This document shows positions 26,664-30,061 of a DNA stretch of 64,000 nucleotides, in pieces. Every line of letters starts with the position of its first letter. Within the stretch, counting starts at the first letter, position 1. The notes below the pieces were generated by a model that saw only the letters and a program-made list of their open reading frames with translations, made no database searches and was not told the DNA's origin. The DNA is from Fictibacillus solisalsi (lineage in GTDB: Bacteria; Bacillota; Bacilli; Bacillales; Fictibacillaceae). Both the position numbers and the translations under genes were made by a program. The stretch lies in contig NZ_FNHW01000001.1 of assembly GCF_900103485.1 (NCBI RefSeq), positions 469,418 to 533,417 on the forward strand, read 5' to 3'.

Positions 26664-26742
26664 GTTTGTTTTTTTTTGAAGTCTGAACAGGAAATCAACC
26701 ACTTTCAAGACCAACAAGCTTACGAAAAGCCTTTGTTTTTGC

Positions 26743-26775
26743 TTTAAGAAAAAGTTAAGGAACAGCCTGTATAGT
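26743..26775 (+). promoter_or_regulatory. CiaR-like direct repeat and promoter of the two-component operon
   Basis: TTTAAG-AAAAA-GTTAAG (26743-26759) matches the streptococcal CiaR consensus NTTAAG-N5-NTTAAG. TATAGT (26770-26775) begins ten bases after the repeat, the spacing seen at CiaR-activated promoters. The regulator encoded next is CiaR-like, so autoregulation is likely. Confidence 0.5.
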
Positions 26776-26872
26776 AAAGAAGAAACCAGAAGTGGAAGAA
26801 GAGATTGGAAAACGGGGGTTCTATCCATTACACTGGTTATAAGTACAGTTACGGGAAAAGGGGTCGGCTGTT

Positions 26873-27547
26873 TTGCTCCGTATTTTAGTTGTAGAAGATA
26901 ATTTGACATTACTGGATACGATTATTGAAATTTTGTCAGATGAATTTAAAGTGGATTCGGCTTCGAACGGTGATGACGGTTTATATGAAGCGATGCAAAA
27001 TATCTATGATGCGATTGTCCTCGACGTTATGCTGCCGGGAATGAATGGCTTTGAGATTATTCAGCAAATGCGCAGGGAGAATGTAAATACACCTGTTCTG
27101 TTTTTGACCGCAAGGGATGCGCTCGAAGACCGGGTCAAAGGGCTCGACTTTGGCGGAGATGATTACCTGGTCAAGCCTTTCGAAGCCTCCGAATTAAAAG
27201 CGAGGCTTCGTGCGCTATTACGGCGAAGCGGCAGTCTTACCCTCAAGCAGACCCTCCAATACCGGGGCATTGAGTTGTTTGGTCCGGAACAGGATATTTT
27301 TGTCGAAGGTGAACCGGTAAAATTGACAATCAAGCAGTACGAGCTGCTGGAGTATATGATTCAAAACCGTGGTGCCATTTTAACGAAAGAGCAAATCTAT
27401 GACCGGGTATGGGGATTTGACTCTGAAACAACGATTGCCATTGTAGAAGTATTCATGCACCATCTCCGTAAAAAGCTTGAACCGTATCATTATCATAAAG
27501 ATATCAAGACGATCCGTGGCGTGGGCTACATGCTTAAGGAGCAATAA
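26873..27547 (+). CDS. OmpR-family response regulator, CiaR-like
   Basis: A 224-residue regulator, equal in length to streptococcal CiaR and similar to it in several places (GLYEA, MLPGMNGF, KPFEASELKARLRALLRRSG, DRVWGFDSETTIAIVEV, IRGVGYMLK). The receiver domain has acidic E8-D9, phosphoacceptor D51 and Lys in LVKPF; the winged-helix DNA-binding domain fills residues about 125-224. The start is TTG at 26873 with AAAAGGGG upstream; no ATG fits. It precedes its kinase by 12 bases. ArlR and related OmpR regulators are the main alternative family. Confidence 0.92.
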   Translation: MLRILVVEDNLTLLDTIIEILSDEFKVDSASNGDDGLYEAMQNIYDAIVLDVMLPGMNGFEIIQQMRRENVNTPVLFLTARDALEDRVKGLDFGGDDYLVKPFEASELKARLRALLRRSGSLTLKQTLQYRGIELFGPEQDIFVEGEPVKLTIKQYELLEYMIQNRGAILTKEQIYDRVWGFDSETTIAIVEVFMHHLRKKLEPYHYHKDIKTIRGVGYMLKEQ

Positions 27548-27559
27548 GGGGAAATTTTT

Positions 27560-28798
27560 ATGTTTCAACGAACTCATCACAGGCTGACGCTCTTGAATTC
27601 GATTGTGTTTATTATTTTATTAAGCCTGCTTGGTGCACTTGTCTACTCCTATACCCGAGTCAGCTTATATAATGCGGCTGACCATTCGATCAATGAAGAG
27701 CTTCAGCGTCTCCCGGGCACAGGAGAGGACAGGGATCATCACGAAAAAGCACGGGATAAGGATTTTATGGCAAGAGACTCACGGGTCACTATCCTGGTCT
27801 GGGACGAAAATCACAATCTACTGGACCTGCCGCGCCCTCCTTTTTTTGTGATGGATAATGTGGATCAGTATAAACAGGTAAAGATGAACAAACTGGAGTT
27901 TATTCATACGGATGACGCAACTTTCCGATCCAAATCGATAAAGGAAGACATTCCTCTTGTCGGGACGGTAACCGTGCAGGCCATACGTAATGTGAAGACT
28001 GAAGAAGAATTACTGGAAAGACTGCTTATCGTCATTATTGCCGGCTGTTTGTTTGTTGCTGCCTGTGCCATAGGAGGAGGATACTTCCTTGCCGGAAGGG
28101 CCCTTGTTCCCATAAAAAAAGCGTGGGACAAGCAGCAGAAGTTTGTGTCTGACGCATCGCATGAACTGAGAACGCCGCTGTCAGTGATCCAGGCTAAAAC
28201 GGATCTTTTGTTTCGTTCACCCTCGGCAACCATCGAGGAGAAAAGCAGGGATATCTCCGCGATTTCCATAGAAAGCCGGCGGCTTACAAAGCTGGTCAGC
28301 CAGCTTTTACTGCTCGCACGTTCAGATTCTAACCAGGTGGAATTGAAAAAGGAGACTTTTCAGCTGGATCAGCTGCTTCGGGAGATTGTCGAGCATTACG
28401 GAGAAATTGGTTCCTATCAGGGAAAAAATATCAGCCTTCAAGCGAATGGTCCAATTGCTATAAATGCGGATAGGGAGCGAATCCATCAGCTGGTGATTAT
28501 TTTATTGGATAATGCTATGAAGCATACGGGAGATGGAGATCAGATCCTGTTATCGGTAAAGGAGTCGGCTTCTTCTGTAGAGCTGAAAGTAAAAGATAAC
28601 GGTCCAGGGATAGCGGAATATGAGAAAGAACGGATCTTTGACCGTTTTTACCAAAGTGACCAGGCAAGAAGTGATGAGGGGGGACTGGGCCTTGGTTTAT
28701 CCATAGCGAAATGGATCATGGAGAAGCATGAAGGCAAGATTAAAGTGGAAAGTGAAGGTGGCAAAGGAACTGCCTTTATCATGAATTTTCCAAAATAA
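27560..28798 (+). CDS. Sensor histidine kinase partner
   Basis: A 412-residue membrane kinase with the EnvZ layout: helix 1 (about 10-30), an extracytoplasmic domain of about 120 residues rich in charged residues (GEDRDHHEKARDKDF), helix 2 (about 152-175), a short linker, phosphoacceptor box FVSDASHELRTPLSVIQ, and HATPase domain with N-box LLDNAMKHTGDG, G1 DNGPGIAEYE, F-box RIFDRFYQSDQ and G2 GGLGLGLSIAKW. It is the cognate partner of the CiaR-like regulator just upstream. The short outer domain gives no clue to the ligand. A strong terminator follows. Confidence 0.95.
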   Translation: MFQRTHHRLTLLNSIVFIILLSLLGALVYSYTRVSLYNAADHSINEELQRLPGTGEDRDHHEKARDKDFMARDSRVTILVWDENHNLLDLPRPPFFVMDNVDQYKQVKMNKLEFIHTDDATFRSKSIKEDIPLVGTVTVQAIRNVKTEEELLERLLIVIIAGCLFVAACAIGGGYFLAGRALVPIKKAWDKQQKFVSDASHELRTPLSVIQAKTDLLFRSPSATIEEKSRDISAISIESRRLTKLVSQLLLLARSDSNQVELKKETFQLDQLLREIVEHYGEIGSYQGKNISLQANGPIAINADRERIHQLVIILLDNAMKHTGDGDQILLSVKESASSVELKVKDNGPGIAEYEKERIFDRFYQSDQARSDEGGLGLGLSIAKWIMEKHEGKIKVESEGGKGTAFIMNFPK

Positions 28799-28826
28799 AG
28801 ACGAAGGGCTCTGCCCTTCGTCTTTT
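28797..28826. terminator. Terminator between the kinase and aminopeptidase genes
   Basis: AAGACGAAGGGC pairs with GCCCTTCGTCTT across TCT and is followed by TTT. It serves both convergent genes. Confidence 0.92.
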
Positions 28827-30061
28827 TATATTGCCCAATTTCCGTTGGTGAACAATGGAATTCGTTTGCCGTCATGATACTCGGCTTCAATTTCAAGATC
28901 GGCTGAGCCAATCATAAAGTCGGTGTGCCCGTGGCTTTGGTTGACGCCTTTGGCTTCCAGCTCTTCCTTGCTTAACTTGTCCGCTCCAGGAATATTCATG
29001 CTTATCGTCATGCCCAATGCCAGGTGACAGGAGGCATTTTCATCAAACAGTGTGTTGTTGAACACAATCCCAGAGTTGGAAATAGGGGAATCATACGGTA
29101 CAAGTGCAACTTCCCCAAGGTATTTCATTCCTTCGTCGATGTTAAGAAGCTGTTTCAGCGTATCTTCACCTTTTTCCGCTTTAAGATCCACGACTTTTCC
29201 ATCTTTAAAGGAAAGGGTAAAGTTTTCGATGATATTCCCCATGGCGGATAACGGTTTTTTGCTGGTTACGGTGCCGTTTACACCTTCTTTAAGGGGGGCG
29301 GTAAAAACTTCTTCTGTCGGCATATTGGGTATGTAAAAGGTGTTAAAGGCAGAGTGATGGCCTCCGCCAATCCAAACATGCTCTGGATGAAGGTCAATGC
29401 TTAAATCAGTGCCTTCGGATTTGTAATGAAGGGTTTTAAACTTCTGTTCGTTCAGATAGTTTACTTTTTCCACCAATGTCTGGCCGTGTTCTTGCCATGC
29501 TGCAACGGGATCAGGCTGATCGATGCGAACGGTTTTAAAGATAGCCTCCCAAAGTGCCTCTATGGCATCGGTTTCATTTTTTTCCGGAAAGACACTTTTG
29601 GCCCAGCCTGCTGTAGGTGCACCTGCAATCAACCAGGGAACTTCTCCTGCAAGCCTTGCTTTGGATACTTTCTCAAGGCGCTCGCCGGCGTTTTTTTGCA
29701 CAAACATCAGACGTTCAGCTGGCACGCCTTTAAATCCATTCGGATCACTGCCTGTGACCATGAGCATGCAGTCATTGTTTTCAACTAAACTTTCATGCAT
29801 GTCAATTTGCCACTGTGGAAGATTATCTTTCAATACTTCTTCTGAAGCGTTGTTTAAGTGGATCCGGTTCGTTTCTGTATCTGTCCACTCCACAAAAACA
29901 CGCTTACAGCCATTTTTATAGGCATGCTCGGTTACCTTGCGGGTGAAAGGTGCCGCTTCAATTGGAGAATTGATCAATAATCGCTGGCCTTCCTGAAGGT
30001 TAAGTCCTACTTTGACTACGATTTCTGCGTATTGGTCGAGCTTTTCTTCAAACGTTTTCAT
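28826..30061 (-). CDS. M29-family aminopeptidase (AmpS type)
   Basis: A 411-residue cytoplasmic metallo-aminopeptidase of family M29 (thermophilic aminopeptidase T/AmpS). It removes N-terminal residues from peptides with two metal ions. Family blocks at the metal site are visible: MPTEEVFTAP, GEVALVPYDSPIS, the glutamate/histidine region FNNTLFDENASCHLALG and SHGHTDFMIGS. The full family length (about 410) is present. It has its own ribosome site (AGGAGGG) and stands alone. It likely helps recycle peptides in the cell. Confidence 0.93.
   Translation of the reverse strand: MKTFEEKLDQYAEIVVKVGLNLQEGQRLLINSPIEAAPFTRKVTEHAYKNGCKRVFVEWTDTETNRIHLNNASEEVLKDNLPQWQIDMHESLVENNDCMLMVTGSDPNGFKGVPAERLMFVQKNAGERLEKVSKARLAGEVPWLIAGAPTAGWAKSVFPEKNETDAIEALWEAIFKTVRIDQPDPVAAWQEHGQTLVEKVNYLNEQKFKTLHYKSEGTDLSIDLHPEHVWIGGGHHSAFNTFYIPNMPTEEVFTAPLKEGVNGTVTSKKPLSAMGNIIENFTLSFKDGKVVDLKAEKGEDTLKQLLNIDEGMKYLGEVALVPYDSPISNSGIVFNNTLFDENASCHLALGMTISMNIPGADKLSKEELEAKGVNQSHGHTDFMIGSADLEIEAEYHDGKRIPLFTNGNWAI

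Follow-up and report, generated by a model that had tools for sequence, protein, structure and literature searches.

Introduction

CiaR is a much-studied stress regulator of streptococci. In 2010 the CiaR two-component system was stated to occur apparently in no other bacteria than streptococci, and CiaH homologues were reported from this group only (PMC3091779). The same study predicted streptococcal csRNAs by a recipe consisting of the repeat, ten bases, a −10 box and a terminator. Six years later, BAS0540-BAS0541 was described as the closest CiaRH homologue in Bacillus anthracis (PMC4938410). According to this report BAS0540 binds NTTAAG-N5-TTTAAG, and its regulon was predicted from the CiaR consensus by a motif search of intergenic regions with no fixed spacing to a −10 box. 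Gel shifts were observed at five promoters including its own and were stronger with the phosphorylated regulator. Small RNAs are not mentioned in the parts of the report consulted here (PMC4938410).

Two further systems resemble the locus described below in their targets or architecture. YclJK of B. subtilis activates ykcBC and yngABC; it has been speculated that YkcC, YngA and YkcB, supplied with UDP-glucose by YngB, make up a pathway of cell-envelope glycosylation (PMC7961091). Control of ykcBC was also reported for YrkP (PMC5836110), which was not found in the genome stretches examined here. In Listeria, LisRK and LhrC represent two-component control of multicopy RNAs of 111–114 nt with UCCC motifs under cell-envelope stress (PMC4132741).

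The Locus and Its Promoter

The analysed stretch of 64 kb, called the window, belongs to a genome of 4.80 Mb (G000). The host, a soil-dwelling relative of Bacillus, had been taken for a Bacillus in the first-pass annotation; it is a Fictibacillus and not a Bacillus sensu stricto, its nearest named relative being F. fluitans with 94% regulator identity. All features of the locus lie on the forward strand. At its own promoter the regulator is predicted to bind a CiaR-type direct repeat, TTTAAG-N5-GTTAAG (26743..26759), composed of TTTAAG (26743-26748), the spacer AAAAA and GTTAAG (26754-26759). The −10 box TATAGT (26770..26775) is located ten bases downstream, which confirmed the arrangement noted before. 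The gene of RR-A, an OmpR-family response regulator of 224 aa with a TTG start (26873..27547), was assigned from its open reading frame and sequence comparisons, and that of a sensor histidine kinase of 412 aa with HisKA and HATPase_c domains (27560..28798) from its open reading frame and Pfam. A hairpin with a T-run 3' of the kinase gene (28800..28828) resembles an intrinsic terminator by eye.

The repeat NTTAAG-N5-NTTAAG occurs a single time on both strands of the window. When the intergenic stretch of 262 bp was shuffled 20,000 times with its dinucleotides preserved, any NTTAAG-N5-NTTAAG repeat appeared with a frequency of 0.002, and the repeat followed by N10 and TANNNT with a frequency of 0.0001. 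The locus shares the regulator-kinase operon with BAS0540-BAS0541, where the regulator's own gene is listed with TTTAAG-N5-TTTAAG (PMC4938410). Thus, a CiaR recognition site outside streptococci, which the first-pass annotation considered notable, was already in print for B. anthracis. BAS0540 is a presumed orthologue of RR-A.

Relationship of RR-A to CiaR

RR-A was the best of 14 matches in G000 to a CiaR query (E 4.3e-62, 45% identity). The second-best match reached E 2.1e-42, and altogether 13 matches besides RR-A were obtained at E ≤ 1e-10. The query sequence is backed by its 99% identity to the protein of L083, which comes from a genome of 2.1 Mb. RR-A is about 44% identical to this CiaR (99/223 residues), so that the resemblance noted earlier holds. 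The block WGFDSETTI of RR-A reads WGFDSDTTI in the L083 protein.

A quick maximum-likelihood tree of 93 rows, calculated without bootstrap, placed 51 RR-A and 25 CiaR-like rows in one branch (SH-aLRT 90). Twelve G000 paralogues, E. coli BasR, a 48%-identical regulator of G004 and the proteins of L039/L040 were found outside this branch. Selection of the rows for their similarity may have excluded intermediates, and the tree program warned of places where long branches meet, the RR-A/CiaR join among them. Instead of a phylogeny far from CiaR and a genome lacking other sites, which had been named beforehand as grounds against a CiaR-like system, we found the CiaR clade adjacent to RR-A and further phased sites in the genome.

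A comparison of the DNA-contact residues, as proposed in the first-pass annotation, gave a divided answer. The recognition helix core TT[IV]x[IV]VEV[FY] is common to RR-A and CiaR and differs in the paralogues; a G000 paralogue encoded near the ApbE operon described below carries a GDTNVVDVYI-type helix unlike both. Two helix positions distinguish RR-A from CiaR. Position 196 is H in 51/51 RR-A rows versus S in 24/25 CiaR-like rows, and position 197 is H or Q in 50/51 RR-A rows versus K (21 rows) or H (4 rows) among the 25 CiaR-like rows.

Other assignments of RR-A were also considered. It shares 80/218 residues with E. coli BasR, a protein not included in the RR-A and CiaR branch, and the NCBIfam PmrA profile scored 179, below its cut-off of 330; RR-A consequently does not group with PmrA. 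Identity with YclJ was ruled out, as RR-A and the YclJ-like regulator of L262 share no more than 31% of their residues. We take the latter to be YclJ-like from the gene order; its genome looks like one of the B. subtilis group. A plasmid search returned at least 5000 records, all below 60% identity, and was uninformative.

The Kinase

The first-pass annotation spoke of a CiaRH-like two-component system, which is too strong for the kinase. The transmembrane and sensor part shares only 25 of 182 aligned positions with CiaH of L083, and 20 to 34 of about 182 with eight CiaH-like kinases, whereas the kinase core is 36% identical (82/225) to CiaH of L083. A BLASTP search with the sensor part alone matched 4 of the eight CiaH-like kinases (best E 1.4e-4), that of L083 not among them. 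Full-length alignments to the CiaH-like kinases began at residues 2-16 in 6/8 cases, which indicates that the window kinase and the CiaH-like kinases are colinear. Because its sensor part is little like CiaH, a difference from streptococcal CiaRH, the pair is filed here as CiaR-like and not as CiaRH.

Arrangement of RR-A Loci

A perfect repeat at the own promoter was found in 7/58 orthologue loci from six distinct genomes, namely L010/L016 (one contig), L011, L019, L031, L219 and the window. In 42/58 loci the regulator gene follows, with a gap of 67-312 bp, a same-strand gene for a MacB-like ABC permease, the permease family being judged by eye from the tail of the gene. None of these 42 loci contains a perfect repeat within 450 bp upstream. 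The seven loci with the repeat all belong to the remaining 16, among which L017 has only 48 bases of upstream sequence. The free-standing, self-promoted RR-A pair of the window is a minority arrangement.

Phased Sites and the Candidate Regulon

The genome was searched for further repeats ten bases ahead of −10 boxes, as the first-pass annotation had suggested. The bare repeat NTTAAG-N5-NTTAAG showed no enrichment in G000, with 17 matches versus 24 for a reversed control. When a TANNNT box was required 8–12 bases downstream, 8 matches were obtained versus 1, and five of the eight, the own site included, had a spacing of exactly ten bases. The fixed spacing to the −10 box, not the bare repeat, separates the sites from the background. 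The same phase was evident in a set of 22 genomes, which represent 22 of 29 orthologue loci with L017 and the remoter L039-L044 set aside. Matches were found in 17 of these genomes and none in 5. Of the 80 matches, 65 had a distance of ten bases to the −10 box, 11 of eleven and 4 of nine, and the reversed control gave 40 matches compared with the 80. A same-strand open reading frame starts within 350 bp of 50/72 distinct phased sites; for this count L260-L280 were set aside, near-copies in related genomes were counted apart, and the reading frames are mechanical. The repeat and its ten-base distance to the −10 box are those of streptococcal CiaRH (PMC3091779, PMC8317062). Unlike there, the first base of the second hexamer is free: it is T in 12/61 distinct phased sites and G in the window, while just two of 24 streptococcal csRNA promoters carried another base than T there (PMC3091779, PMC8317062).

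Besides the window operon, the sites of exact phase in G000 precede four loci. Site (a) at C4:216766 heads a GT2-GtrA-GalU-YkcB operon for YkcB-type glycosylation, site (b) at C8:175119 a gene for an acyltransferase 3, site (c) at C4:2669481 an operon for a small secreted protein, ApbE and a ferric-reductase-like protein, and site (d) at C4:3387878 a DUF4405 cytochrome-type gene. The family names were taken from Pfam, which gave no family for the small secreted protein of operon (c); the GalU assignment in operon (a) is presumptive. The genes of operon (a) are of the glycosylation kinds activated by B. subtilis YclJK (PMC7961091), and DUF4405 proteins are a class of cytochromes of which a minority is encoded beside apbE (PMC11334425). 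A sixth repeat at C4:2394709 consists of the same 16-mer as the own promoter, followed after ten bases by CATACT and then by an HtrA-type protease gene (Trypsin_2 and PDZ). This extra HtrA is specific to G000 among the seven genomes of the genus. Its best match in each of the six others has 51-52% identity, like the second G000 HtrA, whose type is common to all seven. Cell-wall polymer modification, autoregulation and possibly HtrA are target themes shared with streptococcal CiaRH, where HtrA is a classical target (PMC3091779, PMC8317062). By comparison, classical virulence factors were said to be missing from the predicted BAS0540 regulon, which sets it apart from CiaRH and its HtrA (PMC4938410). 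No csRNA-like gene was seen behind the six promoter sites with perfect repeats examined in G000; at site (b) a hairpin lies only about 24 bases past the −10 box.

Relatives of the targets stand behind sites in other genera as well. Sites were found ahead of relatives of operon (a) in Ectobacillus (L251) and G537 (L254), and ahead of relatives of (b) and (d) in Neobacillus drentensis (L240 and L239). The identities of the target proteins amounted to 37% for DUF4405, 44% for the acyltransferase, 59% for YkcB and 72% for GT2.

Several additional observations were made by eye at sites in other genomes. A similar small secreted protein follows a site at L241, a teichoic-acid synthase-like protein at L249, a TagA-like enzyme at L250 and C39-like proteins at L236, L247 and L253. 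Secreted proteins of similar make-up are encoded behind phased sites in four genomes (L238, L252, L284, L287), some of them with a LEI.GV.LDQAFS-type stretch. In Neobacillus (L235, L248) the promoter of another two-component system, distinct from the first, contains a phased site of the CiaR type, which suggests a cascade.

Association of Phased Sites with RR-A

In an order sample of 397 genomes, RR-A was scored as present at E ≤ 1e-70 (52 genomes). Sites were searched with the pattern TTAAG-N6-TTAAG-N10-TANNNT, and both searches were joined by matching genome handles. A phased site was detected in 48/52 genomes with RR-A versus 83/345 without. The corresponding ratios of sites to reversed-control matches were 157:64 and 108:192.

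Since related genomes are not independent, genomes were also compared within genera. In the ten genera with both states, 28 genomes with RR-A contained 66 sites versus 8 sites in 25 genomes without it (stratified permutation, p 6e-5). Six genera showed a clear excess with RR-A and g207 a slight one; g16 and g39 were tied at zero, and g43 showed the opposite. The genomes of g178 counted as having RR-A contain only 51%-identical orthologues, near the threshold. The genus of the window was represented in this test by G000 and G001 alone. When all seven genomes of the genus were searched with a pattern allowing 9-11 bases, those with RR-A contained 7 (G000), 6 (G003) and 3 (G006) sites, and those without 4 (G004), 3 (G002), 1 (G001) and 0 (G005).

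Joint Loss of Regulator and Targets

RR-A is present in 3/7 genomes of the genus (G000, G003, G006) and absent from G001, G002, G004 and G005. In three of the latter four, conserved flanks reveal a deletion of the system with different endpoints. G004 lacks the equivalent of 26719-28637 and has kept kinase residues 361-412, G002 retains residues 349-412, and G005 contains pieces of residues 286-412 in different frames. No remnant of the system was seen in the more distant G001. Judged by the identity of flanking genes, G004 is near G000 and G003, whereas G002 and G005 are as far away as G006; the losses therefore span at least two branches.

The state of the targets (a), (c) and (d) goes with that of the regulator. 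None of the 7 loci located in genomes without RR-A is intact. Only scraps of operon (a) are left in G004 and G002, operon (c) has disappeared from G004 and is disrupted in G002, and gene (d) carries a frameshift in G004, is broken in G002 and was not found between its flanking genes in G005. With RR-A, all 8 located loci are present and 6 of them complete, three of the eight being those of the reference G000 itself: operon (a) in G000 and G003, operon (c) and gene (d) in G000, G003 and G006. Despite an intact regulator, GalU of operon (a) is truncated in G003 and the third gene of operon (c) in G006. Acyltransferase (b) is present in G003 and is intact in G004 though the regulator was lost. 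The comparison covers the loci that could be located, to which (a) and (b) of G006, (a), (b) and (c) of G005, (b) of G002 and all loci of G001 do not belong.

Two sites of G004 (L136:4155 and L137:5548) are intact phased sites whose target operons are deleted, and the site of gene (d) in G002 now has a spacing of eleven bases. The sites of G002 and G004 were rejected as a sign of another regulator, given the broken or missing targets behind the surviving sites and the remnants of the RR-A kinase. Apart from this, G004 encodes the 48%-identical regulator mentioned above with its own kinase beside an ApbE relative of 25% identity (L135, C2:172000-186000), where genes like those of FMN-binding and NqrB/RnfD-type proteins were seen by eye.

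Small RNA Candidates in Relatives

Tandem units resembling csRNA genes were detected in two genomes of one genus, three in G688 (L281:2002-2480) and two in G627 (L282:1980-2285), 157-172 bp apart. RR-A was found at E ≤ 1e-70 in G627 and not in G688. Each unit is composed of a CiaR-type repeat, N10, a −10 box (TATCTT, TATGCT or TATCCT) and 73-88 nt up to the T-run of a terminator with a folding energy of −8 to −17 kcal/mol. A C-rich stretch ahead of the terminator, for example AACCCCCUUUUUU, was unpaired in 3/5 folds; the single-sequence folds were unexceptional (z +0.5 to −2.2). Mechanical open reading frames of 39 to 95 aa overlap the units, the longest, an ATG-started frame of 95 aa, spanning both G627 units. 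We read the units as probably non-coding, since the frames run through the terminators and are dissimilar between the copies.

In the genus g26 a phased site heads a terminator-ended unit of about 100 nt in 11/11 genomes of the order sample (L294-L300, L304-L306, L310). Eight share one repeat sequence and three another; synteny of the two groups is not assumed. In 10/11 units the 5' part forms a conserved hairpin of ten pairs, the loop of which is rich in C (AAGUCCCCAA or GCCCCCC). Nine of the 11 units contain no same-strand open reading frame of 30 aa or more, and two contain one of 48-49 aa. Two-sided changes affected 8/28 predicted pairs; they were confined to the stem of the terminator, and the 5' hairpin showed no such change. 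Because a convergent gene, ynbB-like in L244, lies just past the unit, the terminator may serve both. A second, longer g26 unit, S2 (L301-L303, L312, L313), likewise lies behind a phased site and has about 210 nt with a conserved AAAGCCCCUGA core and a terminator; it is without a clear open reading frame in 4/5 cases, L303 containing one of 40 aa. A third conserved g26 site, S3 (L307-L309, L311), was not counted as a promoter, as it overlaps a terminator-like inverted repeat.

Rfam gave no match at the gathering score for the candidates of G627/G688 and g26, and sub-threshold matches to Hrs13, rliE and Atu_C9 were not trusted. No report of csRNA-like genes outside streptococci was met in literature searches aimed at other questions. 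Tentatively, we consider that the whole architecture of the CiaR network, small non-coding RNAs included, may reach beyond streptococci into Bacillaceae; our confidence is lowered by the mechanical reading frames across the G627/G688 units and in 2/11 g26 units. For Listeria LhrC, the bases required for LisR-dependent induction are those at −55 to −75 (PMC4132741), a position upstream of that of a repeat spaced by ten bases from the −10 box.

Proposed Mechanism and Alternative Explanations

The locus very probably encodes a CiaR-like two-component system whose regulator would activate its own operon and about five further loci, mostly of the envelope type. In the proposed mechanism, the kinase would phosphorylate RR-A, which would then dimerise. 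The dimer would bind both NTTAAG half-sites, which lie 11 bp apart in head-to-tail orientation on the same helix face. Because the second half-site ends ten bases ahead of the −10 box, RR-A would replace the −35 element and activate transcription of its operon and of the loci for YkcB-type glycosylation, the acyltransferase, ApbE/ferric reductase, DUF4405 and the extra HtrA. The signal may be envelope stress. We observed the sites and their phase, found them associated with the gene of RR-A, and saw the regulator decay jointly with its targets; binding, activation and signal are predictions from sequence.

In all likelihood, the site at 26743 is functional. That it is a chance match with no regulatory role could be argued from the 17 bare matches versus 24 in the reversed control, yet we regard this as hardly credible in view of the rarity of the phased form in the shuffles, the presence of a perfect repeat ahead of the RR-A gene in five other genomes and the ten-base phase of most matches. 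A different OmpR-family regulator with a similar half-site, as in the PmrA box CTTAAT-N5-CCTAAG, might instead bind the repeats, RR-A merely adjoining one of them. Half-sites of the TTAA kind are indeed not unique to CiaR (PMC3973317), phased sites persist in genomes without RR-A, including four in G004 and three in G002, and G000 encodes the 13 other CiaR matches, one of them about 4 kb from the ApbE-operon site (L130). However, the sites are associated with RR-A genome-wide as well as within genera, three target loci are damaged where RR-A was deleted, and the paralogue near the ApbE operon has an unlike recognition helix. Another regulator therefore appears improbable.

For the joint loss, a separate question is whether loss of the regulator silenced the targets or whether the whole physiological function was lost by selection on the targets. 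The latter is a serious possibility, though we hesitate to call it probable: targets and regulator are both damaged and may have been lost in either order, but the intact sites at L136:4155 and L137:5548, where the genes are gone, fit a decay from the coding side. Regulator and targets are linked under either reading.

Conclusions

The interpretation given in the first-pass annotation was mostly right but not new, as a CiaR-like regulator with this repeat had been reported once in Bacillus, for B. anthracis (PMC4938410). The wider gene set, the loss together with the target genes and the possible small-RNA targets in relatives look new. The present analysis adds that phased sites are statistically associated with RR-A throughout the Bacillaceae sampled; further additions are the candidate envelope regulon, the loss of regulator and targets together and the lead to small RNAs. 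If the small RNA reading is true, csRNAs would be an old feature of the CiaR-type regulator family or a repeated invention. The Fictibacillus species with the system deleted and the target loci decayed represent a natural experiment. If the regulator, the phased site, the envelope targets and possibly small RNAs are common to many Bacillaceae, an ancestral role of the system in remodelling the surface and controlling protein quality when the envelope is under stress would become readable by comparative genomics.
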